Positions 4,074 to 60,479 of a DNA stretch of 64,000 bases are shown piece after piece (position 1 is the stretch's first letter; each line of letters starts with the position of its first letter). Source of the stretch: Ohtaekwangia koreensis. Its GTDB lineage: Bacteria > Bacteroidota > Bacteroidia > Cytophagales > Cyclobacteriaceae. The stretch lies in contig NZ_FUZU01000003.1 of assembly GCF_900167975.1 (NCBI RefSeq), positions 806,001-870,000 of the forward strand, in the 5' to 3' direction. The notes beneath the pieces are model-generated. The model was not told the origin of the DNA. It saw only the letters and a program-made list of their open reading frames with translations, and ran no database searches. Position numbers and translations under genes: made by a program.

Positions 4074-5009
4074 ATGAAATCTTTCATCTCCATATTGGTA
4101 GCTTACTTCCTGTTGCTCATGGCCAGCGCATCGTTTGCACAGGAAACTTCTTCAAATAAAGTAATTGTTACCGGGGTACGCTTCGCATATCCACTGATAG
4201 AGAAATGGATCCAGGACTATAAAGCTGTTAACCCATCAGCTTCCATTAGCATTGAAACACGTACAACAACAGATCCTACCAAATACGATCTTTTAATTGA
4301 AGCTTACGAACCTGAAAGAGCGATAAAAGAAACGCGTGACTATCTATATATAGGGCGCTATGCATTATTACCAGTGGCCAATGCTTCTTCCGCGTTCGCA
4401 AAAACATACCATGATAAAGGCTTGACAAATGCCTTGATCAAGCAATTATACTTCCACGATATACTGGCTGACAAGGATAAAAAGCAGGAGATAAAAGCTC
4501 CTTATACTATATACACCCGTTTACAAAAAGCCGGGGCACCGGTAACATTCGCGCGGTATTTCGGATATGAACAACAAAACATTTCCGGTAAGGCAATCGC
4601 GGGGGCAGATGAACACCTGATCAAAGCATTGCTAAAAGACTCCACCGGAGTTTCCTATGGCACGCTGGGACTTTTATACAATCCGAAAACACGTAAGCCT
4701 TTGGACGGTCTTTCTGTTCTACCGGTAGACCTCGACGAAAACGGGCGCATATCCAATGATGAAAAGATATTCGATGACCTGGAGACTGTTATTACACGAC
4801 TCGAAGATGATAAAGTAAAAAACGTTCCAATCGAATACTTACATATATCACTGAGTAAAATCAGTACGAATCCGGATGCTTTGAAATTCCTGCTCTGGAT
4901 TATCGACAATGCGCAGGAAGATCTTCACGCATTCGGTTATCTGAAACCTGAGATCAAACGCTTCGAAGCGGAGAAAGAAAAATTCCTGCAACGCGCGGCT
5001 GCCCAGTAA
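4074..5009 (+). CDS. PstS-like periplasmic substrate-binding protein with EF-hand-like loop
   Basis: This 311-residue protein has a signal peptide (MKSFISILVAYFLLLMASAS, cut near FAQ) and the layout of the PstS-like binding-protein family (PBP_like_2): VTGVRFAYPLIEKWIQDYK at the N-terminus and VSYGTLGLLYNPKTRKPLDG in the second half. Family members bind phosphate or related oxyanions; the ligand here is unknown. Residues 219-230, DLDENGRISNDE, match the 12-position EF-hand calcium loop (acidic or oxygen side chains at 1, 3, 5, 9, 12 and Gly at 6). It is the first gene of the sulfatase array, 85 bases upstream of susC. A paralogue with the same loop sits near the other end (17213). No ABC permease or ATPase gene is nearby, so it may serve the outer-membrane system or act as a sensor. 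Confidence 0.75.
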   Translation: MKSFISILVAYFLLLMASASFAQETSSNKVIVTGVRFAYPLIEKWIQDYKAVNPSASISIETRTTTDPTKYDLLIEAYEPERAIKETRDYLYIGRYALLPVANASSAFAKTYHDKGLTNALIKQLYFHDILADKDKKQEIKAPYTIYTRLQKAGAPVTFARYFGYEQQNISGKAIAGADEHLIKALLKDSTGVSYGTLGLLYNPKTRKPLDGLSVLPVDLDENGRISNDEKIFDDLETVITRLEDDKVKNVPIEYLHISLSKISTNPDALKFLLWIIDNAQEDLHAFGYLKPEIKRFEAEKEKFLQRAAAQ

Positions 5010-5094
5010 CCTAACAACTTTAACAACTCCATACAACGTGTCCTTTGCTGCTCATAAAATGAGTAGCCCGGGAATCCTTTAACCTTTTATAAAC

Positions 5095-8000
5095 ATGAAA
5101 AAATTTCTACTCACGTCATTCTTTACACTTTCCCTGGCAGGGTTTGCTTTCGCACAAGAGAAGCTTGCCGGTTCTATTAAGGATGAGGGCGGAGATCCTT
5201 TACCTGGCGCCACCATTGTACTGAAGGGAACATCATCATACGCTGTAACAGACACCGAAGGAAATTTCTCGATTGCTCCGGCAAAGGAATTTCCATTTAT
5301 ACTTCAGGTAAATCTGGTAGGCTATAAACAACAAGAGATCGAAATCTACGAACTGACCGAAGAATCAACTGACATCACGCTGCAGATTGAAAATATACTA
5401 AATGAAATTGTGGTTATCGGCTATGGCGAAGTAAAGCGAAAAGATATCACGGGTTCGGTCGCATCCGTGCCTGCAGAGCTTAAAGCACAACCGGTGAGTT
5501 CTCCAGAGCGATTGCTGCAAGGGGCAACGGCCGGGGTACAGGTTACACAAACCAGTGGCCAGCCCGGAGGTGGTGTAAGTATACAGATCCGTGGTAACAA
5601 CTCGATTACTGCAGTGTCCGATCCACTATATGTCATTGACGGCTTTCCAATCAACAATGACTATAGCATTAACGATGCAGGTGTAACAGACGGTCCCAAG
5701 CTAAATCCACTGTCAACGATCAGTCCTTCGGATATAGAGTCGATCGATGTTTTAAAAGATGCATCGGCTACCGCGATCTATGGTTCACGTGGAGCGAACG
5801 GTGTTATTATAGTCACTACAAAAAAAGGAAGTAAAGGTGGAAAGTCATCTATACATTACGATGGCTACTATGGCGTACAAAAAGTAATCCGTACTATACC
5901 CGTACTAAATGCACGTGAATGGTGGGAGTTGAGAAAGGAAGCGTATGCAAACACACCAAATGGTAAAGCAGCAACGCTGCCTGCATCCGGTACATTTAAT
6001 TACGATACGACAGGCGCTGGCACTGATTGGCAAGGTGCCGCCTTTACAGAGGCTCCTATTCAAAGCCATAGTCTTTCTATACTGACGGGTTCCGACAAAA
6101 CAGGAATTGCCTTTTCAGGAAACTATTTCAAACAGGAAGGTATACTTCGGAACACAGGGTTTGATCGCTACGCTGCACGCATTAACGTAGAACATGACAT
6201 CAACGAGCGTTTTACATTTACATCCTATATCACGGGAAGCTATACTATAGGAAGTGTTGCGCCGCAGGCTATTGTACCGAACCTGCTCCTCACCTCTCCT
6301 GCTATACCCGTATATGATACACTCGGAAACTTTGTCCGGAATACCTCTACGGATTCACCGTTACAAAATCCAATCAACTCGCTGCTGAACCAGATTAACG
6401 AAAGCCGTACAACACGATTTCTTGCCAATGTAGCAGGCGAATATAAACTTACTGAAGAACTATCATTCAAAGTATTGTTGGGTACCGATATAGTCCTCAA
6501 CAAACAAAACCGGTATTTACCAAACAGTACCTACGAAGGAAATCCGTCAGGAGGCGTGGGTACAGGGGGTATCGCTACCATTGGTACATCCAATACCATT
6601 AGCTGGCTGAATGAGAATACGCTTTCTTATTCCAAAATATTCAACGGCATCCATAATATAAATGCAGTAGTAGGTTTTACAGCGCAAGCTTCTGATACCA
6701 AAGGTGAAGTAGCTTCTGCCGCTACATTTGCATTTGATGATCTTACCTATAATGCATTGCAGAATGGGACAGGCACCAGAACGCCAGGTTCATTTGCATC
6801 TTCCTGGCAGTTGGCTTCCTTTCTTGGCCGGATAAACTATATACTACGCGAAAAGTATTTGCTAACGGTAACCCTACGCGCAGACGGTTCATCGCGGTTT
6901 GGTGGTGGTAATAAATGGGGATACTTTCCATCTGCGGCATTGGGTTGGAATCTGAACGAGGAGAGCTTTCTTGAAGATATACAGGAAATCAGTATTCTTA
7001 AACTGCGCCTCAGTGCTGGTGTAACCGGAAACCAAGGCATTGTACCGTACTCTTCTATATCGCAGATTGCTCCATACCGCTACAACTTCTCCAACGCAAC
7101 GGTGCAAGGCTATGCCCCTAACTCTGTAAACAATCCGAATCTTGGTTGGGAACAAACTTTTCAAACCAACATTGGTATAGATCTCGGTCTGTTCGACAAT
7201 CGGGTAAATATAGTAGCGGATTACTATCAGAAGAAAACTACTGACTTGCTGTTGAACGCATCAGTGCCGGGCTCTTCAGGACTTTCTTATTATGATCCTT
7301 CTACAAATACAAGCCAGGCTTCTACCATTTACCAAAATATAGGGGCTGTAGAAAACAAAGGTGTAGAAGTGGCTGTAAATGCACAAACCCTCCGCGGTAG
7401 CAAGTTAACCTGGAACACGCTTTTTGTATTCTCGAAAAACTCGAACAAAATCACAGACCTTGGTGCCGGTATAGATCGGATTATACCCAACATCAGTCAG
7501 CCTTCTGTATTACAGGTGGGCGCACCAGTAGGTTCTTTCCTGGTATACCAGACGGATGGTTTGATAAAACCGGAAGAAGCAGGATCAACTGCGCTTACTC
7601 CTCAAGCTGATAAAACAGCAGGTGGACAAAAGTATAAAGATATCAGTGGACCGAACGGAGTACCCGATGGTGTTATTACACAAACTTATGATCGTGTTAT
7701 TATCAAGAATCAGCCGGGTATAAATCTTGGATTGACCAATACAATAAAATACAAGACTCCGGTCGGAGATATAGATCTGACTATATTCTTTCAATCTTCA
7801 CTGGGTGCCAAGCTATATAATAATAACCGTGCTACCCTGGAGCTGGGTACAGGATACTACAATGGTTCAAAAGATATGCTGAACCGCTACAGTGCAACCA
7901 ATACTGATACTGATGTTAAAGAAGCATACCAGGACCCGGCTGTTACTATATCAGATCGCTTCATCGAAAACGCTTCGTACCTGCGGTTAAAGAATGTAAC

Positions 8001-8217
8001 AATCGGGTATACATTTCCGAAAGCATGGACTGCACGGATAAAAATACAAGGCCTGCGGATCTATGGTTCAGCCCAAAATCTCTGGACAAAAACAGATTAT
8101 ACCGGGTATGATCCCGAAGCCAGCTTCTCGGGGCAGTCTTTGATAAACCGGGGTATCGACAACGGTGTATATCCAAATTCCAAATCAATATTGGGTGGAG
8201 TTAGCCTTACATTCTAA
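5095..8217 (+). CDS. SusC/RagA-type TonB-linked outer-membrane transporter
   Basis: The protein has 1040 residues, the usual SusC length. In order: signal peptide (to about residue 21, FAFAQ); a carboxypeptidase-D-like beta-sandwich (residues 22-105, with GSIKDEGGDPLPGATIVLKG); a TonB-box region around NEIVVIGYGEVKRKDITGSV; a plug domain with IQIRGNNSITAVSDPLYVIDG and SIDVLKDASATAIYGSRGANG; and a 22-strand-type barrel ending in aromatic GGVSLTF. SusC proteins form the channel through which ligands captured with SusD cross the outer membrane, powered by TonB. The downstream susD begins 45 bases later. The co-directional sulfatases suggest a sulfated ligand, which is an inference. Confidence 0.95.
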   Translation: MKKFLLTSFFTLSLAGFAFAQEKLAGSIKDEGGDPLPGATIVLKGTSSYAVTDTEGNFSIAPAKEFPFILQVNLVGYKQQEIEIYELTEESTDITLQIENILNEIVVIGYGEVKRKDITGSVASVPAELKAQPVSSPERLLQGATAGVQVTQTSGQPGGGVSIQIRGNNSITAVSDPLYVIDGFPINNDYSINDAGVTDGPKLNPLSTISPSDIESIDVLKDASATAIYGSRGANGVIIVTTKKGSKGGKSSIHYDGYYGVQKVIRTIPVLNAREWWELRKEAYANTPNGKAATLPASGTFNYDTTGAGTDWQGAAFTEAPIQSHSLSILTGSDKTGIAFSGNYFKQEGILRNTGFDRYAARINVEHDINERFTFTSYITGSYTIGSVAPQAIVPNLLLTSPAIPVYDTLGNFVRNTSTDSPLQNPINSLLNQINESRTTRFLANVAGEYKLTEELSFKVLLGTDIVLNKQNRYLPNSTYEGNPSGGVGTGGIATIGTSNTISWLNENTLSYSKIFNGIHNINAVVGFTAQASDTKGEVASAATFAFDDLTYNALQNGTGTRTPGSFASSWQLASFLGRINYILREKYLLTVTLRADGSSRFGGGNKWGYFPSAALGWNLNEESFLEDIQEISILKLRLSAGVTGNQGIVPYSSISQIAPYRYNFSNATVQGYAPNSVNNPNLGWEQTFQTNIGIDLGLFDNRVNIVADYYQKKTTDLLLNASVPGSSGLSYYDPSTNTSQASTIYQNIGAVENKGVEVAVNAQTLRGSKLTWNTLFVFSKNSNKITDLGAGIDRIIPNISQPSVLQVGAPVGSFLVYQTDGLIKPEEAGSTALTPQADKTAGGQKYKDISGPNGVPDGVITQTYDRVIIKNQPGINLGLTNTIKYKTPVGDIDLTIFFQSSLGAKLYNNNRATLELGTGYYNGSKDMLNRYSATNTDTDVKEAYQDPAVTISDRFIENASYLRLKNVTIGYTFPKAWTARIKIQGLRIYGSAQNLWTKTDYTGYDPEASFSGQSLINRGIDNGVYPNSKSILGGVSLTF

Positions 8218-8262
8218 GCAACCGCACCAATCAATCAACTATATACTTGTAAACAAGCTCAT

Positions 8263-9876
8263 ATGAAGTCCTTAAAATATATAGCATTAACGGGAACTAT
8301 ACTCTTTGCTTTCGTTTCATGCAGCAAATTTCTGGAAGAAGATCCGGAAGGTTTTATCGCCACGGATAGTTACTATAACACCGAGGCCGATGCTATCAAT
8401 GCCGTGAACGCGGTATACTATTTATTAAACGCAGGAGGTAATGCCGTACAAACGCCCTATAATACATTATTCAACACCGGCCTTAACTTTGAAGCCGACG
8501 ATGAATTTCCAGGACCTGGTGCAACGAACCCGGACGTTCGTTCTATGGCCAACCTGTTGCATACATCTTCCAACCTCCGGGTATATGAGTTGTGGCAACA
8601 GCACTATGCAGCAGTACGCAAAGCAAATTTAGCAATTGAGAAAATACCTACTATCAATTTCAGTGAAACGCTTAAAACAAGATTGATCGGTGAAGCTAAA
8701 TTTCTCAGAGCCTTATGGTATTTCAATCTTGTAAGACTATACGGCGATGTTCCGCTCATCAAGGGTGTACAAACCGGTGTAACATCAACGGACTATGCCA
8801 TTGAACGAACACCTTCTGCGCAAGTATATGCACAGATTGAACAGGACTTGAAAGATGCAGCAAGTGTACTGCCTGATTCCTATGTATCACCGGATGTAGG
8901 AAGGGCTACAAAAGGTGCTGCACTCGCGTTGCTATCAAAAGTATATCTAACAAAAGCTTCACTCCCATTGAACCTTACTGCGCATTATGAAGACGCTGTA
9001 ACGACCGCTGAGCAAGCGTTATCACCAGCAGACGGTGGTACGGGTACATTTGGCTATGCGCTGCAAAGCGATTACTCAAGAGTATTTCTACCTGCCTATA
9101 AAAATAACTCCGAACATATATTTTCGGCACAGTTCAAATCCGGATCAAGCTCAAGCTATCTCACACAAGGCAACAATCAAAACCCGAGATCAATCAGAAC
9201 ACAGGTTCCAGGGCTCGCAGGTTCCTATGCTGACCAAGTATGGTTCTATACGGTAGACGATGCTTCCAAACCCGGAGGTAAAGACAAGTTCTTCAGTGTC
9301 TTTAAACTATATACTTCAAAAGATAAAAGAAGAGACGTAACGTTCGTAACTAATTTTAAAAGTCCTACCAATGGTAAACGTTACGGAGCATTGAATGACC
9401 CGGCCATCAAGGGGAGTAAACTTGATTCTATACCTTACTTCAACAAAACGTGGGACCCTAACTCAACAGCAGTTACCAGTGAGTCGGCAGCCAATGTGGC
9501 AATCATTCGCTATGCAGAATTACTTCTGATCCACGCTGAAGCGGAAAACGAATTGAATGGCCCGACAGCAAAAGCCTATAGCTCGCTTAATAAAGTACGG
9601 AACAGAGCAGGACTTGATGACCTGACCGAAGGATTAACACAAGCACAGTTCCGTGATTCGCTATACCTGGATCGCAGGCTTGAACTTGTATTCGAATATC
9701 AGCGCTGGTTTGATCTCGTACGTCAGAAAGATGCAGATGGCAATTCCATTTTTGTGAAGACGCTTCGTGCCTCTGGCAAAGTCAACGCGGAAGATAAACA
9801 CAGACTACATCCTATACCGCAACAGGAAATTGAATTGAATGCCAGCCTTCGGGATAATCAAAATCCCGGGTACTAA
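8263..9876 (+). CDS. SusD/RagB-type surface lipoprotein
   Basis: The protein has 537 residues and a lipoprotein signal ending in FVSCSKF (lipobox Cys near residue 21). The helical TPR-like scaffold is visible in KTRLIGEAKFLRALWYFNLV and VAIIRYAELLLIHAEAENEL, and the C-terminus has the family ending, DNQNPGY. SusD proteins form the lid over the SusC barrel and bind the substrate at the cell surface. It lies 45 bases after susC and before the first sulfatase, so it is very likely co-transcribed. The 105-base gap to the next gene contains repeated TATA-type sequence but no clear terminator. Confidence 0.95.
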   Translation: MKSLKYIALTGTILFAFVSCSKFLEEDPEGFIATDSYYNTEADAINAVNAVYYLLNAGGNAVQTPYNTLFNTGLNFEADDEFPGPGATNPDVRSMANLLHTSSNLRVYELWQQHYAAVRKANLAIEKIPTINFSETLKTRLIGEAKFLRALWYFNLVRLYGDVPLIKGVQTGVTSTDYAIERTPSAQVYAQIEQDLKDAASVLPDSYVSPDVGRATKGAALALLSKVYLTKASLPLNLTAHYEDAVTTAEQALSPADGGTGTFGYALQSDYSRVFLPAYKNNSEHIFSAQFKSGSSSSYLTQGNNQNPRSIRTQVPGLAGSYADQVWFYTVDDASKPGGKDKFFSVFKLYTSKDKRRDVTFVTNFKSPTNGKRYGALNDPAIKGSKLDSIPYFNKTWDPNSTAVTSESAANVAIIRYAELLLIHAEAENELNGPTAKAYSSLNKVRNRAGLDDLTEGLTQAQFRDSLYLDRRLELVFEYQRWFDLVRQKDADGNSIFVKTLRASGKVNAEDKHRLHPIPQQEIELNASLRDNQNPGY

Positions 9877-9981
9877 AAAATCGGATCACTAATAGCTATA
9901 TCTATATAGTATATACGTGATCTTTAATTAAAAGGGAAGTTGTCCACCAGGCTTCCGGTTAACAACGCTAAACAAAACAGT

Positions 9982-12312
9982 ATGACCGTTTCCTCTTCTT
10001 TCAAACAGTACGCAAGAATTTTTACTACTTTGATTCTTGTCGGGACTTTCGCGAAGCATGCTGCAGGACAGCATAGTCCTTCACAACCTTATCAAGGTAA
10101 AATCGGGCGCAATCTTGCAGAGACAAAAGCCTGGTGGCCTGAAAAAAAGAAGGCTCCACAAAATGCACCCAATGTAGTCTGGATCTTACTGGATGATGTA
10201 GGTTATGGTGCGATCAGTACATTTGGTGGTCTCATTAAAACACCTACACTCGATAGCCTTGCCAACAACGGGCTCCGCTATACTAACTTCCATACTACAG
10301 CCATCTGTTCCCCTACGCGTGCTGCATTGCTCACCGGAAGAAATTCTCATTCGGTACACATGGGACTATTTCCACAAACTGCGATTGGTACACCGGGGTA
10401 TGATGGCTATATGCCATTGGAGAAAGCAACCATTGCAGAGATACTTCGTGAGAATGGATACAACACCTATGCTGTGGGCAAGTGGCATCTTACGCCTCCC
10501 TCCGATGCAACGGCTATCGGTCCATTCAACCGTTGGCCTACTGGCTGCGGGTTCGATCACTTCTATGGATTTCTGGGAGGATCAACGGATCAATGGCACC
10601 CTACTCTATGGGAAGACACACGTAAAGTAGAACCGGCTTCTGACGGAAAACATTTCAACACACGCCTGGCCGATAAAGCAATCGGATATATAGCAGAGCA
10701 AAAAACAGTCGATGCATCAAAACCTTTCTTCCTATACCTGACACCTGGCGCTGGCCATGCTCCACACCAGGTTGCCAGAGAATGGTCTGATAAGTATAAA
10801 GGTAAATTTGATGGTGGATGGGATAAATACCGCGAAGATGTACTCGCACGGCAAATTGCATTGGGCGTTGTTCCGAAGGGAACTGTATTGCCAGCGCGTA
10901 ATCCTGGTATAAAAGAATGGAATACATTATCCACGGATGAGAAGAAGCTATATGCACGTTTCATGGAAGTATATGCGGGCTTCGTTACACAAACCGACTA
11001 TGAGATCGGACGCATTATAAACTTTATACGCAAGACAGGGCAGCTTGAGAATACGCTGATCGTTGTATCGGTAGGCGATAATGGTGCGAGTAAGGAAGGA
11101 ACGTTTGTCGGTGTAGTAAATACCAACGACCCGGCACAAACCGAAGCGCAGCGTCTGCAGCAAAATATAGCAGACATAAACCTGATCGGTACCGAAGCGT
11201 CAAAGCCAAACTATCCATTGGGTTGGGCTATGGCCGCAAACACACCTTTCAAATACTGGAAGCAGGATGCCAACTCTGAAGGAGGCACTCGTAATCCGCT
11301 GATCGTTTTCTATCCGAAAGGTATATCTGAAAAAGGTGGCATTCGTAATCAATATAGCCACGTGATCGATATACTTCCTACTACGCTCGATCTTACCGGA
11401 GCGCAGGTACCATCGATCATCAATGGATACAGACAGGAACCTATCGAAGGAACAAGCCTCGCCTATAGCATAAACAATCCGGCTTCACCATCACGTCACG
11501 TTGTTCAGCATTACGAAATCATGGGGTCCCGGTCTATCTATAAAGATGGGTGGAAAGCTGGAACACTCCATAAGAAAGGCGAAGATTTCAGTACCGACAA
11601 ATGGGAACTCTATAACCTGAATGAAGATTACAATGAACGCTTTGATCTGGCCGATAAAAATCCGGAGAAGTTGAAAGAGCTGCGCGAACTATTCGACAGG
11701 GAAGCTGCAAAGTATAATATATATCCCTTGAAAGATGGAACCGAAAAAGAACTCGATTATAATCCACTATACCAGCGAAACGAACAAAGCGCTACGGTAT
11801 TCTATCCGGAAGCCGGAGAAGTCTTTGGTATAGCCAGCCCCATTGTCCCCTATCGCTCCTATACCATTACCGCAGATGCGGAAGTATTAAAAGGTAGTGA
11901 GGGAGTACTCTTTGCTTTGGGTGGCCGCTTTGGGGGTGTGAGTTTGTTCATTAAAGATGGAAAGTTACAGGCTGCCAACAACACCGGGGCAAAGCTCACG
12001 CACCTGGTTTCAGACAAGCCCGTACCAGCCGGAAAAGTAAAGCTGAAATATATACTCACCTATAAAGAAGCTAAAGAGCCAACCGATGCTGCGGGTACGC
12101 AGGCCCTTTACATCAATGATGTAAAAGTAGCCGAAGCTCCGATTGTCAAGGCACAAGCCAACATTCGCAATACGGACGAGATCAATGTTGGCAAAGACTA
12201 TATCACACAAGTATCTGATCGCTATAAAGGTCCTTTCGCCTTTACGGGAAAAGTGAACAGCGTATTGGTGGAGAATAGTAAAGACCAGCCTCTCTCGCTC
12301 GGAAGCAAGTAA
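9982..12312 (+). CDS. AtsA-type sulfatase (Cys type) with extra C-terminal domain
   Basis: I chose the ATG at 9982 rather than the TTG at 9940 because it directly precedes a signal peptide (MTVSSSFKQYARIFTTLILV, cut near AAGQ); this gives 776 residues. The catalytic core starts with PNVVWILLDDVGYG (metal-binding Asp pair). The sulfatase signature ICSPTRAALLTG places the modified cysteine at residue 109, which must be converted to formylglycine. KWHLTP follows. The pattern matches the bacterial arylsulfatase AtsA group of family S1. After about residue 590 there is a beta-sandwich-like extension (VLFALGGRFGGVSLFIKDG) found in long members of this group. Export to the periplasm or surface is expected. 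The substrate is unknown; the susCD genes upstream and the FGE gene downstream form its functional context. Confidence 0.9.
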   Translation: MTVSSSFKQYARIFTTLILVGTFAKHAAGQHSPSQPYQGKIGRNLAETKAWWPEKKKAPQNAPNVVWILLDDVGYGAISTFGGLIKTPTLDSLANNGLRYTNFHTTAICSPTRAALLTGRNSHSVHMGLFPQTAIGTPGYDGYMPLEKATIAEILRENGYNTYAVGKWHLTPPSDATAIGPFNRWPTGCGFDHFYGFLGGSTDQWHPTLWEDTRKVEPASDGKHFNTRLADKAIGYIAEQKTVDASKPFFLYLTPGAGHAPHQVAREWSDKYKGKFDGGWDKYREDVLARQIALGVVPKGTVLPARNPGIKEWNTLSTDEKKLYARFMEVYAGFVTQTDYEIGRIINFIRKTGQLENTLIVVSVGDNGASKEGTFVGVVNTNDPAQTEAQRLQQNIADINLIGTEASKPNYPLGWAMAANTPFKYWKQDANSEGGTRNPLIVFYPKGISEKGGIRNQYSHVIDILPTTLDLTGAQVPSIINGYRQEPIEGTSLAYSINNPASPSRHVVQHYEIMGSRSIYKDGWKAGTLHKKGEDFSTDKWELYNLNEDYNERFDLADKNPEKLKELRELFDREAAKYNIYPLKDGTEKELDYNPLYQRNEQSATVFYPEAGEVFGIASPIVPYRSYTITADAEVLKGSEGVLFALGGRFGGVSLFIKDGKLQAANNTGAKLTHLVSDKPVPAGKVKLKYILTYKEAKEPTDAAGTQALYINDVKVAEAPIVKAQANIRNTDEINVGKDYITQVSDRYKGPFAFTGKVNSVLVENSKDQPLSLGSK

Positions 12313-12377
12313 TCATTCTAAATGTAGGACCGGGACAAAAACTGGTTCTCAAAATATACTCTGATAAAAAAAATAAC

Positions 12378-12497
12378 ATGACACTTTCAGATGTAACAAC
12401 ACTCGCAAAAAAGATCCTGGTCGGGATTCTTGTAACGCTTGTCCCCTTCATTATCCTTTTCGGTGGCTTGTGGCTCACGCAAAAATTACTGAGCTAA
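12378..12497 (+). CDS. Small single-span membrane protein (39 aa)
   Basis: An ATG frame of 40 codons encodes a short polar start (MTLSDVTTLAKKI) followed by one clear membrane segment, LVGILVTLVPFIILFGGLWL, and the tail TQKLLS. It sits 65 bases after the first sulfatase and 47 before a second small membrane protein, in the same direction. The hydrophobic-helix composition and its place inside a tight array support a real gene. I recognise no family and the function is unknown. It could anchor or partner the neighbouring membrane hydroxylase. Confidence 0.55.
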   Translation: MTLSDVTTLAKKILVGILVTLVPFIILFGGLWLTQKLLS

Positions 12498-12544
12498 CAT
12501 TATAAGTAAAACTATATACTCAAAACTATATACCAACATCCTAT

Positions 12545-12706
12545 ATGAAAATTGAACCGCATATTGCAAACAGGATATTCAGAAACATACTTCTGAGCCT
12601 CTTCATTTACGCTTTGCCAATAGTGCTAATGCTGCTGACGTTTTACCTGTCGGGTGAAAGACCGTGGGAAAAGAAAGCACCAACGCATCAGGTTATCCGA
12701 AAATAA
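12545..12706 (+). CDS. Small single-span membrane protein (53 aa)
   Basis: An ATG frame of 54 codons gives a basic N-terminus (MKIEPHIANRIFRN), one membrane segment (ILLSLFIYALPIVLMLLTFY) and a charged tail (GERPWEKKAPTHQVIRK). By the positive-inside rule the orientation is ambiguous, as both ends are basic. It lies between another tiny membrane protein and the sterol-desaturase-type hydroxylase (24 bases to its start), so it is probably part of the same transcript. No family is recognised. A role as a small subunit of the hydroxylase is only a guess from position. Confidence 0.55.
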   Translation: MKIEPHIANRIFRNILLSLFIYALPIVLMLLTFYLSGERPWEKKAPTHQVIRK

Positions 12707-12730
12707 TATCAACCCTAAATCCAACTATAT

Positions 12731-13675
12731 ATGATCAAGTTTTTTGAAGCACTTTTTCAAAACCTGAGCACGTGGGGTTTACCTGTGCTGGTACTCTTAC
12801 TGGGTATCGTTGAGTTTTCATTGGGTCTCTATAAAAAACACTGGGACAAGAATGAACGTATACTGGATATCGTATGCTATACTGTTCCAAAAATTGTTGT
12901 ACGCCCATTGGTAGCATACTTCGGTTTGAAATTCTTACCACTGGCTTTACCCGGTTTTAAAGCAGCGTTTGAATGGGTACCCTTCTGGTGGGGCTTTTTT
13001 ATTCTCTGTATCGCGGATGATTTGACGCAATACTGGTATCACCGTTTGCATCATGAAGTACCATTCCTCTGGCGGTTCCATCGAACGCACCACTCTGCGC
13101 CCTATATGGGCATGGCAATGGCCGGACGACAGAATATCATCTATACTATATTTTTTTCACAGACATACCTTACCACGGCATTGGTATATGTAGGCCTTGG
13201 TTACCCAGCCCTGTTTGTAAAAGGTATCAAATCAATCATCACTACACTGGCACATTCCAGCATTCCCTGGGATAAACCTTTTTATGAAAAGAAATGGCTA
13301 CACCCCATTGCCTGGGTTTTGGAACGCCTCATCTCAACACCAGCAACGCACCACGCACATCATGCTGATACAAACGATGATGGTATAGGGCACTATAAAG
13401 GAAACTTCGGCAATATGTTTTTCCTGTGGGATATCATTTTCGGTACAGGCATCATCACACGCAAATACCCAACCGCGTATGGCATAAAGCATTACCAGAA
13501 AGAAGAGTGGTACGCACAATTCATGTGGCCTATTTTCAAGTCGAAGAAAGCAGGCAGCGAATTATCCGCAGACGGACCTATGGTACAGGAGGACCCTATA
13601 GCAGAAGAAGCCGCTACAACGGAACGGGTAGTGCTCGAACCGGTTCGCAGAGAATCAAAACTTGGTCTCACCTAA
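12731..13675 (+). CDS. Sterol desaturase / fatty acid hydroxylase family protein
   Basis: This 314-residue integral membrane protein carries the three histidine clusters of the di-iron fatty acid hydroxylase superfamily (PF04116): HRLHH at 104-108, HRTHH at 117-121 and HHAHH at 207-211. About four hydrophobic segments surround them. Family enzymes use O2 and a di-iron centre to hydroxylate or desaturate sterols, ceramides, carotenoids and alkylglycerols. The C-terminal 45 residues are polar and acidic, outside the usual domain. The gene is embedded between sulfatase genes and 24 bases after a tiny membrane protein. That context is unusual and suggests that the sulfated substrate, or the product after desulfation, is a lipid or steroid; this is an inference. 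Confidence 0.9.
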   Translation: MIKFFEALFQNLSTWGLPVLVLLLGIVEFSLGLYKKHWDKNERILDIVCYTVPKIVVRPLVAYFGLKFLPLALPGFKAAFEWVPFWWGFFILCIADDLTQYWYHRLHHEVPFLWRFHRTHHSAPYMGMAMAGRQNIIYTIFFSQTYLTTALVYVGLGYPALFVKGIKSIITTLAHSSIPWDKPFYEKKWLHPIAWVLERLISTPATHHAHHADTNDDGIGHYKGNFGNMFFLWDIIFGTGIITRKYPTAYGIKHYQKEEWYAQFMWPIFKSKKAGSELSADGPMVQEDPIAEEAATTERVVLEPVRRESKLGLT

Positions 13676-13714
13676 TTATACCTATAAAACAGATAAAACT
13701 TCTTCCAACAACCC

Positions 13715-15595
13715 ATGAAAAAATTCTCACAATTCACGCCTCGCTATACGCGGCTGAAAATAGCAGTATCGTTACTGTTGACAGTAACACTGCTACCATC
13801 GGCCTATAGCCAGCAAGGGAAAATCAGCAAGTCAGTAAAAGATTCACAGCCCTATAAAGTTGAGTACCTGAAGAAAGCTGCTGCAGGCTCGCCCAATGTA
13901 TTACTGATCTTGCTGGATGATGTCGGGTATGGTGCTACCAGTGCGTTTGGCGGATTGATCCACACGCCAAATCTGGATACACTGGCCAACCAAGGTCTGC
14001 GCTATACCAATTTTCATACAGCCGGTATATGCTCCCCTACACGTGCAGCATTGCTCACAGGAAGAAACCACCATTCAGTAGGCATGGGGTTGTTTCCGCA
14101 TTATTATCTCTCTGCAGATTTCCCAGGGTATAACGGACATATCCAACCCGAGAAAGGAACAATAGCAGAGGTGCTACACGAAAACGGATATAGCACCTAT
14201 CAACTAGGCAAATGGCATCTTACTCCCGATGATGAAAATACAGACCTCGGTCCTTTCGACCGTTGGCCTTCCGGAAAAGGGTTTGATCATAACTATGGTT
14301 TTCTTGGAGGTGCAACGGATCAGTATAAGCCTGACCTAGTAGAAGACAATCAACATATCAAACCTGACGGCAGACATTTGAATGCTTTACTTACGGATAA
14401 AGCGATCAGCTATATCAGCAAGCAGAAAGAACTTGCTCCATCGAAGCCATTCTTTTTATACTATGCTACCGGGGCAGGTCATGCTCCACACCAGGTAGAT
14501 CGTGAATGGTCTGACAAATACAAAGGTAAATTTGATGAAGGATGGGATGTATACCGTGAGAAAGTATTTGCCAATCAAAAGAAACTCGGTGTTATACCGG
14601 CCAATGCACAACTGCCACCGCTCAATGCATACCTGAAGGCATGGAAAGATCTGCCGGCAGACGAGAAGAAGCTATATGCACGGTTCATGGAAGTATACGC
14701 AGGTTTCCTGGAGTATACCGACTATGAAATAGGGCGTCTGCTCAAGCACTTGAAGACAAGCGGTCAGCTTGAGAACACCGTTGTCTTTGCAATCATTGGC
14801 GACAATGGAGGAAGTAAAGAAGGCCTGGAATATGGTGTCACCACGAAATCCATTCGCTTTGGTATAGATAACATCAAGCGCGATGATTATCGGAAATTTA
14901 TACTTAGTGAATATGATAAGATTGGTGGAAAAGAAGTTGCCACGGTAGCAAACTATCCACTCGGCTGGGCGCAGGCAACCAACACGCCTTTCAAATTCTG
15001 GAAGAGTGATGCGAATGCTGAAGGCGCAACGCACAATCCACTCATTGTATATTTCCCGAAAGCTGTTACAGACAAAGGAGGTATTCGCAATCAATATACG
15101 CATCTCATAGATCTATACCCTACCATTGCAGAGCTCACTGGTGTGAAGCAACCTGAAACAATCCGAGGTGTTAAGCAAGATCCATTGCATGGCACCAGCC
15201 TGGTATATTCTATACTTGATAAAGGTGCTGCATCGCGCCATACACAACAATACTATTGCATCTTCGGAAACCGGGCAATCTATAAAGACGGATGGAAAGC
15301 CGGTGCTGCACACAGACCGAACTCGCTGGATCTATTTACCTATGCAGATGAACCCAAGACCACATTGGAGAACAATCCGGATACAGAAGTATGGGAACTC
15401 TATAATCTGAATGAAGATTTTAACGAGCGTACCAACCTTGCACAGAAGTATCCTGAAAAGCTAAAGGAGCTCAAGGATTTGTTCGATACCGAGGCAGCCA
15501 AGTATAATATATATCCACTGATTGATATTGAATATGCGGCCGGACGCTACAAAGAATTACAGCAACGTCAGCAGGCACAACAAGCCAAAAAATAA
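13715..15595 (+). CDS. AtsA-type sulfatase (Cys type), second copy
   Basis: The protein has 626 residues. A long signal region (about 33 residues, ending PSAYSQQ) precedes the catalytic core, which starts at PNVLLILLDDVGYG. The signature ICSPTRAALLTG puts the formylglycine cysteine at residue 106; KWHLTPDDENTDLGPFDRWP and DNGGSKEG follow. It is a clear paralogue of the 9982 sulfatase (same order of motifs, same WELYNLNEDFNER region) but stops after the catalytic domain, without the roughly 180-residue C-terminal extension. The pair may attack two positions of the same molecule. A strong hairpin lies immediately after its stop codon. Confidence 0.9.
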   Translation: MKKFSQFTPRYTRLKIAVSLLLTVTLLPSAYSQQGKISKSVKDSQPYKVEYLKKAAAGSPNVLLILLDDVGYGATSAFGGLIHTPNLDTLANQGLRYTNFHTAGICSPTRAALLTGRNHHSVGMGLFPHYYLSADFPGYNGHIQPEKGTIAEVLHENGYSTYQLGKWHLTPDDENTDLGPFDRWPSGKGFDHNYGFLGGATDQYKPDLVEDNQHIKPDGRHLNALLTDKAISYISKQKELAPSKPFFLYYATGAGHAPHQVDREWSDKYKGKFDEGWDVYREKVFANQKKLGVIPANAQLPPLNAYLKAWKDLPADEKKLYARFMEVYAGFLEYTDYEIGRLLKHLKTSGQLENTVVFAIIGDNGGSKEGLEYGVTTKSIRFGIDNIKRDDYRKFILSEYDKIGGKEVATVANYPLGWAQATNTPFKFWKSDANAEGATHNPLIVYFPKAVTDKGGIRNQYTHLIDLYPTIAELTGVKQPETIRGVKQDPLHGTSLVYSILDKGAASRHTQQYYCIFGNRAIYKDGWKAGAAHRPNSLDLFTYADEPKTTLENNPDTEVWELYNLNEDFNERTNLAQKYPEKLKELKDLFDTEAAKYNIYPLIDIEYAAGRYKELQQRQQAQQAKK

Positions 15596-15604
15596 ACCTA
15601 TGGA

Positions 15605-15632
15605 TAGATACCCTGGTCATCCAGGGTATCTA
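15605..15632 (+). terminator. Strong hairpin between second and third sulfatase genes
   Basis: A perfect 12-bp stem (15605-15616 with 15621-15632, core ATACCCTGG/CCAGGGTAT) closes a 4-base TCAT loop, 9 bases after the sulfatase stop codon. No T run follows, so it may stabilise or process the message within the operon rather than end it. Confidence 0.6.
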
Positions 15633-15680
15633 AGCTTTAACGGATTCCAGTATACATATATATTCATTGCAACCACCTCT

Positions 15681-17144
15681 ATGAAAAGATCGATAATACA
15701 TGTGAGCAGATTTAGTTACAGAATCTTTTTTATACTATCCAGTATATTTGGCTGCCTGCAAATACGTCCAGCGCTATCGCAGGCTCCCATTGCCAAGCGT
15801 GCTATATCTGGTCCGAACATCATTATTATACTGGCCGACGATCTCGGGTATGGGGACCTCTCCTCTTTCGGACAGACCCAATGGGAAACTCCCAATATTG
15901 ACAAGCTTGCAGCCGAAGGTGCTAAACTCACACAGTTCTATGCACCAACGCCTTATTGCGCGCCTACGCGGGCCTCTCTCCTTACCGGGCTATATCCTAT
16001 ACGTCATGGTTTAACTTCCAATCCAAATCCTGAGAAAGCACAAAACAATTACCAGACCTATCGCGGTGGTGATGCTATAGGGATTGCGGACAACCAGTTG
16101 CTGTTAAGCGAAGCATTGAAGGCATCGGGGTATGCAACAAAAATTATAGGCAAGTGGCATCTTGGTCACAAGCCTCCTTTCTTTCCAACACGTCATGGAT
16201 TTGATGAATATTATGGTATACCCTATTCAAATGACATGCGCCCGGTTCTGTTGATGGAGAATGATAAGGTTGTAGAATATCCGGTAGTACAAACCACACT
16301 TACAAAGCGCTATACCCAACAAGCGCTGGAGTATATCGACAAAAATAAAGATAAACCGTTCTTCCTATATCTGCCGCACGCCATGCCGCACAAACCTATG
16401 GCTGTATCGGAAGAGTTCTATACTCCTGAAACGAAAGGCGATCTATATGCCGATGCGGTGCGTGAGCTTGATTGGTCGGTTGGGGAAGTAATGAAAAAAT
16501 TAGCACAGACAGGGCTTGATGAAAACACGTTGGTAATTTTTGTTTCGGACAACGGTCCCTGGTTTGGTGGAAGCTCCGGAGGATTGCGCGGTATGAAATC
16601 ACAGAACTGGGAAGGTGGTATACGTGTACCATTTATAGCACGATGGAAAGGTCACATTCCCGCAGGTCACGTAAGTCATGAACCAGCAGGCATCATTGAT
16701 ATATTTCCAACGGTAGGGGTATTGGCCGGAATCAAACTTCCGAAAGGAATAGTATTGGATGGTCGTGATATCACACCAATATTAACATCCCGTGCCAACA
16801 CACCTCACCAGGCACTCTTTTCATTTTATACAGACAAACTTCAAACTGTACGAAGTGGTAAATGGAAACTTCACATTAACTCGCCAGAGTCGGCTAAGCT
16901 TCCTTCGGACTCTACATGGGTTGATCCTCGCAGTCCCGATGGCGTAACCATTCTGGCTCCGTTCGAGCAGGCAAGAGCGCATCAGTTCCCGGGGATACAA
17001 ACGGGTGATGATGCTGCACCCGGATTATTATTCGACCTTGAAAATGATCCTTCTGAACAAAAAAATGTAGCTGATAAATATCCCGAGATCGTTGAGAAGC
17101 TACAGAAACTGGCAACAGCTTTTATTCAGAATAAAGGTATATGA
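15681..17144 (+). CDS. Arylsulfatase-A-like sulfatase (Cys type)
   Basis: I place the start at the ATG at 15681, which gives 487 residues and a signal peptide (MKRSIIHVSRFSYRIFFILS onward, cut near ALSQA). The longer open frame would overlap the previous gene and cross the hairpin. The core begins PNIIIILADDLGYGDLSSFG. The signature YCAPTRASLLTGLYP puts the formylglycine cysteine at residue 93, and KWHLGH, HAMPHKPMA and VSDNGPW follow. This layout resembles human arylsulfatase A and galactosamine-6-sulfatase rather than AtsA. The third enzyme is therefore of a different subfamily from its two neighbours, which implies a second kind of sulfate ester in the substrate. Confidence 0.9.
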   Translation: MKRSIIHVSRFSYRIFFILSSIFGCLQIRPALSQAPIAKRAISGPNIIIILADDLGYGDLSSFGQTQWETPNIDKLAAEGAKLTQFYAPTPYCAPTRASLLTGLYPIRHGLTSNPNPEKAQNNYQTYRGGDAIGIADNQLLLSEALKASGYATKIIGKWHLGHKPPFFPTRHGFDEYYGIPYSNDMRPVLLMENDKVVEYPVVQTTLTKRYTQQALEYIDKNKDKPFFLYLPHAMPHKPMAVSEEFYTPETKGDLYADAVRELDWSVGEVMKKLAQTGLDENTLVIFVSDNGPWFGGSSGGLRGMKSQNWEGGIRVPFIARWKGHIPAGHVSHEPAGIIDIFPTVGVLAGIKLPKGIVLDGRDITPILTSRANTPHQALFSFYTDKLQTVRSGKWKLHINSPESAKLPSDSTWVDPRSPDGVTILAPFEQARAHQFPGIQTGDDAAPGLLFDLENDPSEQKNVADKYPEIVEKLQKLATAFIQNKGI

Positions 17145-17212
17145 GCAAACACGATAAATAAAAACACAACGCATAAAAGGTAACAGTATATCAAAATATA
17201 AAATTATACTAT

Positions 17213-18202
17213 ATGAAAAAGAATCTCATCATCGTCATTATGTTGCTCACCGGTTCATTGGTGTCGGCACAAACACAGCAAGGTGTTGTTAAACTTCGCG
17301 GTACAAGACTCACCTATCCATTGGTGAATAAGTGGATCGAAGAATTCAGCAAAGAATATCCGAACATCAAAGTAACGATAGCACCGAATGCACCTGCTGA
17401 CAGTATCGATTTTAACATTGCTGCCTACGGACTTACCGACAAAGATTTTCAGGGTAATAAAGAAGGCGTTGCCATTGCCCGCTATGTACAGTTGCCGGTA
17501 GCAAACAGTAAGCGCGGCGATCTTGCTTCGCTTCAGGAAAAAGGATTTACTGAAAAAGATTTTAACAATCTATACTTCACATCCGGTACGCCCGACCTGT
17601 TTGCTTCGTCACAAGCTAAGTCTCCAATCACATTATATACCCGCGAAAAACCTGCATGTGCAGCCCATACCTTTGCCAAACATTATGGTAACGATGCTGC
17701 AACCTTACAGGGTACCGGTGTAAAAGGCGATGATAAAGACCTGGCGAATGCAGTACGAAATGATGTGAATGGTATATCGTTTAACAACCTGGGGTTTGTT
17801 TACGATATCAAAACACGTAAAGTATCTGAAGGGCTGGCAGTCATTCCACTTGACCTGAACGAAAATGGAAAAGTGGACAAAGATGAAAAAGTATATGCTA
17901 CGCTGGACGAGGTTATAGGCTATATCGAAAAAACCAATAATCGTAAATTTGTGACTGAGCGCGTAAACTTTGTGTTCAGTAAAAATTCAGCCAACAGATC
18001 CGCTGGTGTATTCCTGCATTGGGTGTTGAGTAAAGGACAGCGATTCAATCACGGAATCGGATTCCTCGAACTGGATGAAAAAACACTTACGGCCCAGAAA
18101 GTTATATCCTCTTCTGTATTCAAGGTGACTTCGGTCCAATCCTGCGAAGGCGCCAGTGATATCACGCAACAACGCAAAGCAAAACTTGCATCCAATAAAT
18201 AA
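17213..18202 (+). CDS. PstS-like periplasmic substrate-binding protein with EF-hand-like loop, second copy
   Basis: The protein has 329 residues and a signal peptide (MKKNLIIVIMLLTGSLVSAQ). The start VVKLRGTRLTYPLVNKWIEE and the later GISFNNLGFVYDIKTRKVSEG align with the protein at 4074. Residues 214-225, DLNENGKVDKDE, are a textbook EF-hand calcium loop. It also has an unusual C-terminal tail with a lone cysteine (VQSCEGASD). Only 5 bases separate it from the formylglycine-generating enzyme gene, so the two are almost certainly co-translated from one message. By family it should bind an oxyanion such as phosphate or perhaps sulfate; the ligand cannot be read from sequence. As at the first copy, no ABC transporter genes accompany it. 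Confidence 0.75.
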   Translation: MKKNLIIVIMLLTGSLVSAQTQQGVVKLRGTRLTYPLVNKWIEEFSKEYPNIKVTIAPNAPADSIDFNIAAYGLTDKDFQGNKEGVAIARYVQLPVANSKRGDLASLQEKGFTEKDFNNLYFTSGTPDLFASSQAKSPITLYTREKPACAAHTFAKHYGNDAATLQGTGVKGDDKDLANAVRNDVNGISFNNLGFVYDIKTRKVSEGLAVIPLDLNENGKVDKDEKVYATLDEVIGYIEKTNNRKFVTERVNFVFSKNSANRSAGVFLHWVLSKGQRFNHGIGFLELDEKTLTAQKVISSSVFKVTSVQSCEGASDITQQRKAKLASNK

Positions 18203-18207
18203 TCAGC

Positions 18208-19080
18208 ATGAACGTTATAATACATAAGCTTGTGAAGGAGTATATATGGATTAGTGTCGAGATATTTGCAATTGTATTACTCTTATCATTCCGCGGTATA
18301 CCAGACTATATAAGCAAAGAGATGTCGGTAGTAAAAGGCGGCACGTTGTCCACCATTGATCCGGTCAGCAAAGCAGCCACGAAAGTAAACATCAGAGCAT
18401 TTCTTCTTGATAGAAATCTCGTGACGGTTGCCGACTTCGAAGTCTTCATTAAAATGACACACTATATTACAGAAGCTGAGAAGTTTGGAAATGCAGGTAT
18501 ATTCGATGCTAAAACCGGTGAATGGACCTTGATCGATGGCGCAGACTTCCGCCATCCGTTCGGTAAAGATAAACCGGCTGCATTGCCAGATCATCCGGTA
18601 ACGCAGGTGTCTTGGAACGATGCGCGTGCCTATGCTAAATGGAAAGGCAAGCGTTTGCCTACACAATGGGAATGGGAGCATGCTGCTAAAAACGGTGAGA
18701 GTACACAACAACAATATAGCTGGGGTGAAGACCTCGTTGTAGGCGGAAAGTATAAAGCCAATACATGGCAGGGAAGTTTTCCTTATCACAATACGGTGGA
18801 AGATGGCTATGCTACAACGTCACCGGTAGGTGCGTTCGGAGCGAGCAAGATTGGACTCACCGATATGGGTGGCAATGTATGGCAATGGTGTGAAGATAGT
18901 ATTGAACCAACCGGGCGGGATAAAGAGATTGACCCTTCCGTAAGACGTGTATTACGGGGTGGATCATTTCTATGTGATCCACTGGTATGCCATGGGTTTC
19001 AAATTGTCGGGAGGTCCTCCTCTACTCCGGAATCCTCGATGGTTCACATTGGTTTTCGATGTGCACAGGACCTGAAGTAA
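18208..19080 (+). CDS. Formylglycine-generating enzyme (sulfatase activator)
   Basis: The 290-residue protein starts with one membrane or signal segment (residues about 12-30), followed by an FGE-sulfatase domain (PF03781). The catalytic cysteine pair of the true aerobic enzyme is present: GGSFLCDPLVC gives Cys256 and Cys261 in the C-x4-C spacing of human SUMF1. The end RSSSTPESSMVHIGFRCA also closely parallels SUMF1. Earlier motifs include PVTQVSWNDARAYAKWKGKR and DMGGNVWQWCEDS. It converts the Cys of CxPxR sulfatases to formylglycine using O2 and copper. Three such sulfatases lie just upstream, so this looks like a dedicated activator. The gene is slightly shorter than typical full-length FGE and closes the array; a hairpin follows at 19090. 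Confidence 0.92.
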   Translation: MNVIIHKLVKEYIWISVEIFAIVLLLSFRGIPDYISKEMSVVKGGTLSTIDPVSKAATKVNIRAFLLDRNLVTVADFEVFIKMTHYITEAEKFGNAGIFDAKTGEWTLIDGADFRHPFGKDKPAALPDHPVTQVSWNDARAYAKWKGKRLPTQWEWEHAAKNGESTQQQYSWGEDLVVGGKYKANTWQGSFPYHNTVEDGYATTSPVGAFGASKIGLTDMGGNVWQWCEDSIEPTGRDKEIDPSVRRVLRGGSFLCDPLVCHGFQIVGRSSSTPESSMVHIGFRCAQDLK

Positions 19081-19089
19081 TCAAACTAT

Positions 19090-19127
19090 ATATCTATAGC
19101 CTGTTATTCAATGCAGGCTATAGATAT
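19090..19127 (+). terminator. Hairpin at the end of the sulfatase array
   Basis: A perfect 14-bp stem (19090-19103 with 19114-19127, core TATAGCCTG/CAGGCTATA) with a 10-base loop starts 10 bases after the FGE stop codon. It has no T run, so it is a probable message end rather than a classic rho-independent site. Confidence 0.6.
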
Positions 19128-23843: not shown

Positions 23844-24278
23844 TCAAAACTCTTCGATGTCTACGTCCGATATATTAACGCCATTTAGTTCGTTTAAAAC
23901 ACGTGCTGAAATAACCAGGTCATAGTCTGCGGTAATCCCGATATCATCACCACCGGGTGTACCCTTTACGGCCAGCAGGAAGTAAGACGGAAGCGGTTCG
24001 CTTGTATATACATCCTTAAATTCACCTGAAATTTCCACGATAAGCTCCTTGCAAATTCCCAACCCTGTGAATTGATTCTCGCGGAAAATTTCAAGCAGCC
24101 TTCTAGTTGCTATGTGTGAGTATTGAAACTTAAAAAGGTCATCAGACGATAAAGCATCGAAAACGATGTGAAATCTATTTACAGTAAAAGGAGTTTGTCC
24201 GCTTCCATATATCTGGCTGATCACCTTCGAGGGATTTCGCCAATGAATTTTATAGTACATTCTGTGATCGATGCTCAC
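23844..24278 (-). CDS. Hypothetical protein translationally coupled to GH76 gene
   Basis: The 144-residue frame probably starts at the GTG at 24278, which overlaps the GH76 stop codon in a GTGA arrangement typical of coupling; an ATG at 24260 is the alternative. It has no signal peptide or membrane segment. The sequence looks like a soluble alpha/beta protein with a Gly-rich turn (VKGTPGGDDIGITADYDLVI) and an acidic C-terminus (NISDVDIEEF). I recognise no family. Being encoded with a secreted glycosidase while lacking a signal peptide, it is not an obvious partner. Confidence 0.65.
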   Translation of the reverse strand: MSIDHRMYYKIHWRNPSKVISQIYGSGQTPFTVNRFHIVFDALSSDDLFKFQYSHIATRRLLEIFRENQFTGLGICKELIVEISGEFKDVYTSEPLPSYFLLAVKGTPGGDDIGITADYDLVISARVLNELNGVNISDVDIEEF

Positions 24279-55859: not shown

Positions 55860-55893
55860 ATGCACAAAGTATATCTCCAAATATAGGAGAATA

Positions 55894-57321: not shown

Positions 57322-57355
57322 AGACTATATCATTTATGTTAACGTGTACCTGTAT

Positions 57356-58492: not shown

Positions 58493-58542
58493 ACCGTAGA
58501 TGTTAGACTCTTCAACAAGCGCTTGCCCTATATTTATACTTC

Positions 58543-60456: not shown

Positions 60457-60479
60457 AGTATATAGTTTAGTAGGTATAT

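Follow-up and report, generated by a model that had tools for sequence, protein, structure and literature searches.

The arylsulfatase AtsA of Pseudomonas is an S1_4 sulfatase, and in soil, arylsulfatases serve to scavenge the sulfur of phenolic compounds (PMC5066984). In Synechococcus, a family 2A encapsulin rises on sulfur starvation (PMC8049743, PMC8346489). The 7.24-Mb genome of Ohtaekwangia koreensis includes, within a stretch of 64,000 nucleotides (C4:806001-870000, referred to here as the window), an array of eleven genes in which AtsA-like sulfatases are encoded together with a SusC/SusD pair, a membrane hydroxylase, two micro-proteins and a formylglycine-generating enzyme (FGE); apart from the micro-proteins, every part of the array can be assigned to a known family. 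We propose that it is an organosulfate-scavenging locus organized around a membrane hydroxylase complex, a tentative reading to which, taken as a whole chain, we give somewhat less than an even chance. The gene families, the pairing of the hydroxylase with the micro-proteins, its link to sulfatases and the sulfur genes that adjoin the locus in some relatives are read directly from sequence, and we hold these gene-level facts with much more certainty than the chain as a whole. The features of the array are as follows.

4074..5009, + strand, PstS-like protein 1, 311 amino acids, apparent signal peptide, 33% identical to PstS-like protein 2
5095..8217, + strand, SusC/RagA TonB-dependent outer-membrane transporter (TIGR04056, 816 bits, above the cut-off)
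8263..9876, + strand, SusD/RagB outer-membrane lipoprotein (PF07980, 132 bits; PF14322, 99 bits)
9940..12312, + strand, sulfatase A, AtsA-like (S1_4 type), CSPTR motif (PF00884, 215 bits)
12378..12497, + strand, tm39, 39-amino-acid single-helix micro-protein with a homologue in 95/95 of the clade loci described below
12545..12706, + strand, tm53, 53-amino-acid single-helix micro-protein, elsewhere fused to the hydroxylase N-terminus
12731..13675, + strand, PF04116 membrane hydroxylase, presumed di-iron (PF04116, 84 bits)
13715..15595, + strand, sulfatase B, AtsA-like (S1_4 type), CSPTR motif (PF00884, 216 bits)
15681..17144, + strand, sulfatase C, GALNS/STS/ARSA-like, CAPTR motif, likely start ATG 15681 (PF00884, 219 bits)
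17213..18202, + strand, PstS-like protein 2, 329 amino acids, apparent signal peptide (PF12849, 23.6 bits, below the cut-off of 27)
18208..19080, + strand, FGE with an N-terminal hydrophobic segment (PF03781, 197 bits)
19090..19127, no strand, perfect 14-bp inverted repeat directly 3' of the array, possible terminator

All eleven genes are on the + strand between nucleotides 4074 and 19080, where a preliminary description of this DNA had placed them. Taking TTG 9940 as the start of sulfatase A and ATG 15681 as that of sulfatase C, the intergenic gaps are, in array order, 85, 45, 63, 65, 47, 24, 39, 85, 68, and 5 bp. Of the range of 5 to 105 bp given in the preliminary description the lower end stands, and the upper end is 85 bp with these starts or 105 bp with a later start of sulfatase A. 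A search with a Bacteroidota-type promoter pattern gave no match inside the array, and three in the window versus a mean of 3.3 in shuffled sequences.

Relatives of the hydroxylase were collected as 95 clade loci: 80 from a scan of named genomes, where the best 80 of 341 relatives were used, and 15 others, with at least one genome (G073, the same as L127, with an identical hydroxylase) counted in both sets. Up to 10 kb of DNA was fetched on each side of every hydroxylase. The controls were 20 regions, drawn from seven genomes that hold the clade and centered on their other PF04116 genes; our own profile also labelled the control PF04116 gene in 12 of them.

The most constant feature of the clade is tm39. 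When a stretch reaching from 700 bp before the called hydroxylase open reading frame (ORF) to 200 bp within it was searched, every one of the 95 loci gave a homologue (E≤0.01, 31-100% identity). Residues D5 and K12 are conserved in 98% and P23 in 97%, and the changes are mostly synonymous, with a ratio of nonsynonymous to synonymous changes (pN/pS) of 0.18 for 98 non-independent pairs. Full-length tm39 matches are present in 14 of 395 genomes of the phylum, exactly the 14 that harbor a close hydroxylase; five partial matches (E 0.003-0.009) are likely due to chance, and none was found in genome G300, whose hydroxylase is 43% identical. In the order, represented by 148 genomes, tm39 accompanies the hydroxylase in 9 of 9 genomes and at both loci of G103, and one extra partial match (E 1e-4) lies inside a 450-amino-acid frame. 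Neither micro-protein profile matched in 26 control loci, consisting of the 20 paralog regions, three outgroup loci and three plasmid loci. That the tiny proteins are spurious ORFs was therefore rejected on the basis of the pN/pS value and the co-occurrence (14/14 and 9/9).

The second micro-protein, tm53, is fused to the N-terminus of the hydroxylase in 55 of the 95 loci, is encoded separately in 36, and was not detected in four. The fusions suggest that tm53 and the hydroxylase work together. Its being a mere broken hydroxylase N-terminus was considered and rejected, since it is separate in 36 loci and lies in a different frame from the hydroxylase in 20 of these, L088 included. Comparison of the tm39 and tm53 profiles gave a probability of 91% when the L064 row, which resembles tm39 itself, was included, and 64% (E 6.5e-5) when it was left out, versus no more than 0.6% for four control sets; tm39 and tm53 may thus be distant paralogs. 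Because of the constancy of tm39 and the fusion of tm53, the core of the locus looks like a membrane complex of both micro-proteins with the PF04116 hydroxylase. The preliminary description had listed simply two tiny membrane proteins; both are there, and they are better described as conserved partners of the hydroxylase. Word searches of the open-licence literature found neither the constant pairing of a PF04116 clade with one or two micro-membrane proteins nor the association of this clade with SusCD-sulfatase sets.

The hydroxylase itself is 99% identical to a protein of one metagenome-assembled genome and 83-88% identical to those of Chryseolinea and Parachryseolinea. It includes the PF04116 domain and histidine clusters in which H104, H108, H117, H120, H121, H175, H207, H210, and H211 are invariant among 38 aligned sequences. 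The earlier designation of di-iron hydroxylase agrees with these features, the di-iron nature being presumed. A search of solved structures with the hydroxylase profile produced one match (E 0.74), and the score against the model of the ornithine-lipid hydroxylase OlsE, 52 bits, is far below the equivalog cut-off of 475. Within the 148 genomes of the order, a group with 56-74% identity plus the O. koreensis gene accounts for 9 genomes, all others being at most 43% identical among the matches listed; in the 395 phylum genomes a match at E 1e-40 was found in 15, with at least 64% identity in 14, O. koreensis included. Three plasmid-borne relatives (35-39% identity) fall outside the clade; two are near arsenic-resistance genes and the third is near an ABC-transporter/acyl-CoA-dehydrogenase-type set, and none of the three has a listed sulfatase or a micro-protein match.

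The link to sulfatases is specific to the clade. A sulfatase gene is present in the fetched DNA of 72 of the 80 named loci, 12 of the 15 others, and 2 of the 20 controls (Fisher p 8e-12 for 72/80 vs 2/20, with kinship not corrected for), and both positive controls come from two genomes of one genus. The sulfatase is within 1 kb of the hydroxylase in 56 of the 80 named loci, an S1_4-type sulfatase (at least 50% identity) directly adjoins it in 51 of the 95, and each of the 34 genus-level labels, assigned from record titles, has at least one sulfatase-linked locus. Gene order in relatives, the check recommended in the preliminary description, shows that the array is not a product of chance: L088 has a collinear array that differs in sulfatase A, which it lacks, and parts of the array, with other sulfatases added, recur in L089, L090, and L091. 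In the 80 named loci SusD is found in 73 and SusC in 66. Since the SusC/SusD proteins are of at least three kinds, the hydroxylase and the sulfatase, rather than the transporter, look like the core. A quick tree was made from 94 clade loci together with the window and three outgroup rows. Sulfatase-linked loci form its deepest branches within the clade, and the link label requires 7 changes. This fits an early association of hydroxylase and sulfatase followed by losses, with the reservation that such a tree cannot prove direction.

An accidental gathering of independent genes could account for gene orders that differ between genera and for SusCD types that are swapped. The counts already contradict it (72/80 vs 2/20 for sulfatases, 95/95 for tm39), and we rejected this explanation as scarcely credible.

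It could also be that the hydroxylase complex remodels the envelope lipids of its own cell, perhaps when sulfur is limiting, and that shared regulation is all that connects it with the sulfatases. The weak similarity to OlsE would agree with this role, as would L058 and L060, in which an RND efflux pump gene is near the hydroxylase and there is no sulfatase; the presence of SusD in 73/80 and of a sulfatase in 72/80 loci argues against it, and we regard it as quite unlikely. In these two loci the pump is one gene away from the hydroxylase, and the whole fetched DNA is free of sulfatases. Relatives of the pump are also in the same locus as the hydroxylase in L090 and L148, with 57% and 81% identity, respectively, to that of L058.

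The absence of glycoside hydrolases from the array, claimed in the preliminary description, was borne out. Family profile scans, which covered ten of the eleven genes, all but the 39-amino-acid ORF, matched no glycoside hydrolase, polysaccharide lyase or regulator, so that of the components of a polysaccharide utilization locus (PUL) the array has the SusC/SusD pair, identified in the same scans, and not the enzymes. Glycoside hydrolase genes are present elsewhere in the window, the first at 24.3 kb:

24275-25414, - strand, GH76 gene, 5 kb from the array
53556-63035, - strand, GH92, GH29, GH88, GH97, and GH95 genes in a row, 34 kb from the array

In relatives, a census was made of 61 proteins, those of at least 100 amino acids among 76 unmatched proteins in same-strand runs with the 80 hydroxylases; this census is partial because a 350-bp gap rule often ended the runs at the hydroxylase. 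The only glycoside hydrolases in it are four GH30 and two NAGLU proteins, in line with the earlier view that this does not resemble a usual sulfated-polysaccharide locus. In 4 of the 80 loci (Niastella and Longitalea) the fetched DNA has NAGLU downstream of the hydroxylase. The other Pfam matches include four or five two-component regulators, two ComA-like proteins and two DUF1254/DUF1214 proteins, and the rest are mostly single matches. By their position, the GH30 and regulator genes in Chitinophaga would belong to a second SusCD set. The DUF1254/DUF1214 genes are directly upstream of the hydroxylase (L161:8240-9691 and L164:8190-9650, Hufsiella and Mucilaginibacter). ComA is a phosphosulfolactate synthase, and the two ComA-like proteins in the same-strand runs, which are probably those of L134 and L135, represent another sulfur-linked family. 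Upstream of the array, the window encodes at 854-3316 an 820-amino-acid protein that is internally repetitive (305-bp matches) and has a Peptidase_S74 (endosialidase chaperone) domain at its C-terminus.

These data bear on another explanation, in which the array serves the use of a sulfated glycan and the genes for the glycoside hydrolases are located elsewhere. SusC/SusD is a hallmark of glycan loci, and the NAGLU genes of four loci, the four GH30 proteins and the GH29/GH88/GH95 cluster 34 kb away could all be counted for it. No other glycoside hydrolase was found among the 61 run proteins, the runs being partial, and a lipid-type membrane hydroxylase with micro-subunits would have no evident role in glycan breakdown. 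We consider a glycan substrate unlikely.

All three sulfatases have the PF00884 domain and the C-x-P/A-x-R formylglycine motif of S1 sulfatases. Sulfatases A and B, which share 57% identity, have as best match in the PDB the Pseudomonas arylsulfatase AtsA, followed by 7all, and by this closest solved structure they are of the S1_4 (AtsA) subfamily type. The best matches of sulfatase C are 4fdi, 8eg3, and then ARSA chains, so that its nearest enzymes are GALNS, steryl-sulfatase and ARSA. The earlier assignment of two AtsA-type and one arylsulfatase-A-like enzymes agrees with these matches. The close relative L088 is devoid of exactly the sulfatase A gene (absence site ~9610-9631 versus 9892-12357 of the window, with flanks 93-94% identical), which indicates that sulfatase A is dispensable. 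Of the 10 sulfatase matches in the O. koreensis genome, three are inside the array.

The FGE encoded at the end of the array carries the PF03781 domain and, aligned to a solved FGE, both active-site cysteines (RGGSFLCDPLVC). It had been described as the array's own FGE, which is correct with respect to linkage and the cysteine pair and not with respect to exclusivity: seven PF03781 matches are present in the genome and the cysteine pair is found in two, the array FGE and a lipoprotein-like protein on C6, so the array FGE as the sole FGE of the genome was discarded. Since both have hydrophobic N-termini, maturation may occur in the periplasm. By eye, FGEs with the cysteine pair in L083, L094, L103, L113, L146, L167, and the O. 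koreensis locus L001 also have lipoprotein-like or hydrophobic N-termini, which suggests periplasmic sulfatase maturation in Bacteroidota.

The two PstS-like binding proteins of the preliminary description show a weak likeness to PstS; they score below the cut-off of the PstS profile, and the phosphate site is not conserved. PstS-like protein 1 has no Pfam match and scores 14 bits with TIGR02136, and the better of the two reaches 32.7 bits against a cut-off of 206.6. Relatives are rare, being found in 9 of 98 genomes of the order, O. koreensis included. Alignment with canonical PstS-type rows and solved PstS sequences shows that they lack a ligand loop and have another residue in place of the Asp in the RSD/RED motif; the loop and this Asp are what we take to be the phosphate-binding elements. 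A phosphate-type site is therefore disfavored, and the proposal that these proteins serve phosphate uptake was rejected. The altered site would allow a fully ionized anion, such as sulfate. No permease was found in the array. Two control regions, L187 and L188, have a sulfatase and a PstS-like protein next to a PF04116 gene from outside the clade, hinting at a second hydroxylase-PstS-sulfatase arrangement.

The genes beside the locus in some relatives speak for the scavenging of sulfur rather than the use of carbon. In L081 and L082, both of genus g85, the genes that follow encode a rhodanese-thioredoxin, a putative sulfate exporter of the YeiH type (over the cut-off of PF03601 and below that of TIGR00698), a CysE-like protein or CysK, a family 2A encapsulin shell (NF041162, 529 bits in L081) and a partial cysteine-desulfurase cargo, whose gene is cut at the end of the locus. 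The encapsulin family PF19307 occurs in 60 of the 395 phylum genomes, 54 of which are in one distant family; of the other six, five, all of genus g85, hold the hydroxylase on the same contig, ~5-27 kb apart. It was found in 21 of the 40 named hydroxylase genomes searched (41 of the 80 loci were submitted) versus 5 of 148 order genomes, the latter rate not being a matched control, and three of the 21 (L146, L143, and L157) have it within 30 kb of the hydroxylase, at distances of 6-13 kb. The enrichment of sulfur genes other than the encapsulin is small. PAPS-reductase-family genes are present in the O. koreensis genome.

The same neighborhoods bear on the use of a small sulfated lipid, sterol or aryl compound as a carbon source, in which the sulfatases would desulfate the compound and the hydroxylase would start oxidation of the ring or chain. 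This is compatible with the weak OlsE match (52 bits, cut-off 475), with the closeness of sulfatase C to steryl-sulfatase and with the array being free of glycoside hydrolase matches. The scanned array genes matched no dehydrogenase, thiolase, ring-cleavage or beta-oxidation family, and the recurrent neighbors are more sulfatases, SusCD and FGE, joined in a minority of relatives by sulfur genes; we think carbon use improbable. The preliminary description had suggested a small sulfated molecule such as a sterol, a lipid or an aryl sulfate as the substrate; the sulfur genes and encapsulins of the relatives point to sulfur supply no less than to the catabolism of such a sterol or lipid.

According to the organosulfate-scavenging proposal, the periplasm would receive, through SusC/SusD, a small sulfated molecule that is probably amphiphilic. 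The FGE would activate the sulfatases, these would release sulfate, and the PstS-like proteins would bind or hand on the released anion. The inner-membrane hydroxylase with its micro-subunits would oxidize the hydrophobic remainder or a sulfur-bearing lipid, while the sulfate would feed sulfur nutrition and, in some relatives, may supply encapsulin sulfur storage. The substrate, the reaction, the use of sulfur and not carbon, and the physical complex are all things that we infer: the substrate would be a sulfate ester with a hydrophobic part, of which sulfate is the valued product, and a small hydrophobic sulfated compound is possible. A bolder version, which we regard as doubtful, is that the micro-proteins and the PF04116 enzyme form an obligate membrane complex that extracts sulfur from lipid-like organosulfur compounds by hydroxylating the carbon beside a sulfonate or a sulfate ester and thereby causing sulfite or sulfate to be released. 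The chemistry can be likened to that of alkylglycerol monooxygenase on ether lipids, and the complex would be a membrane-bound oxidative branch that complements the sulfatases and feeds encapsulins in some relatives.

Several observations weigh against scavenging. The hydroxylase pair is found with no sulfatase in the fetched DNA of 11 of the 95 loci, 9 of which still have SusC/SusD or an RND pump, and thus the substrate of the hydroxylase need not be sulfated. No PF19307 encapsulin is present in the O. koreensis genome, and no rhodanese, YeiH or cys gene in its array. The encapsulin is not near the hydroxylase in 18 of the 21 genomes that have it, and in the order it occurs in 2 of 9 holders of the hydroxylase versus 3 of 139 other genomes (p 0.03), both holders being of one genus. 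Sulfur neighbors are a minority: the rhodanese half is present in 11/80 and 5/15 loci (1/20 controls), and YeiH in 3/80 and 5/15. Large genomes may also hold more of everything. An encapsulin knockout of Synechococcus is reported to have no growth defect under sulfur starvation (PMC8049743). A further point serves the glycan alternative, as the S1_4 enzyme BT4683 is described as a mucin galactose-3-sulfatase that cuts 3-sulfated galactose (PMC10154612).

Whatever the substrate, the most constant neighbor of a whole Bacteroidota hydroxylase clade is a protein of 40 residues, easily overlooked by gene callers. Should tm39 prove to be a subunit, hydroxylases of the clade may be inactive when purified in its absence, and its conserved D5, K12, and P23 are open to direct testing. 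The locus suggests that sulfur supply is the role of some of the many SusCD-sulfatase sets of Bacteroidota, which are usually taken for glycan loci, and it ties sulfatases to encapsulin sulfur storage in some genera.

The array shares with the Pseudomonas AtsA scavenging system the S1_4-type Cys sulfatases, and differs from it by having SusC/SusD, a linked FGE, and the membrane hydroxylase with its micro-proteins. Like a SusCD PUL it has a SusC/SusD pair followed by secreted hydrolases, but no match to a glycoside hydrolase, a polysaccharide lyase or a regulatory gene. In g85, L146, L143, and L157 the homologous locus has near it a family 2A encapsulin operon of the kind that includes a cysteine desulfurase; the O. 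koreensis genome is without a PF19307 match. As with the micro-subunits CydX and KdpF, a single-helix protein of ~40 residues is encoded beside a membrane enzyme; here, however, the partner of tm39 is a PF04116 hydroxylase, in what would be a physical complex. Finally, the hydroxylase resembles the PF04116 fatty acid hydroxylase/sterol desaturase family in its domain, which scores above the cut-off, and in its invariant histidine clusters, but it belongs to a separate clade with a constant 39-amino-acid partner and a split or fused 53-amino-acid helix.

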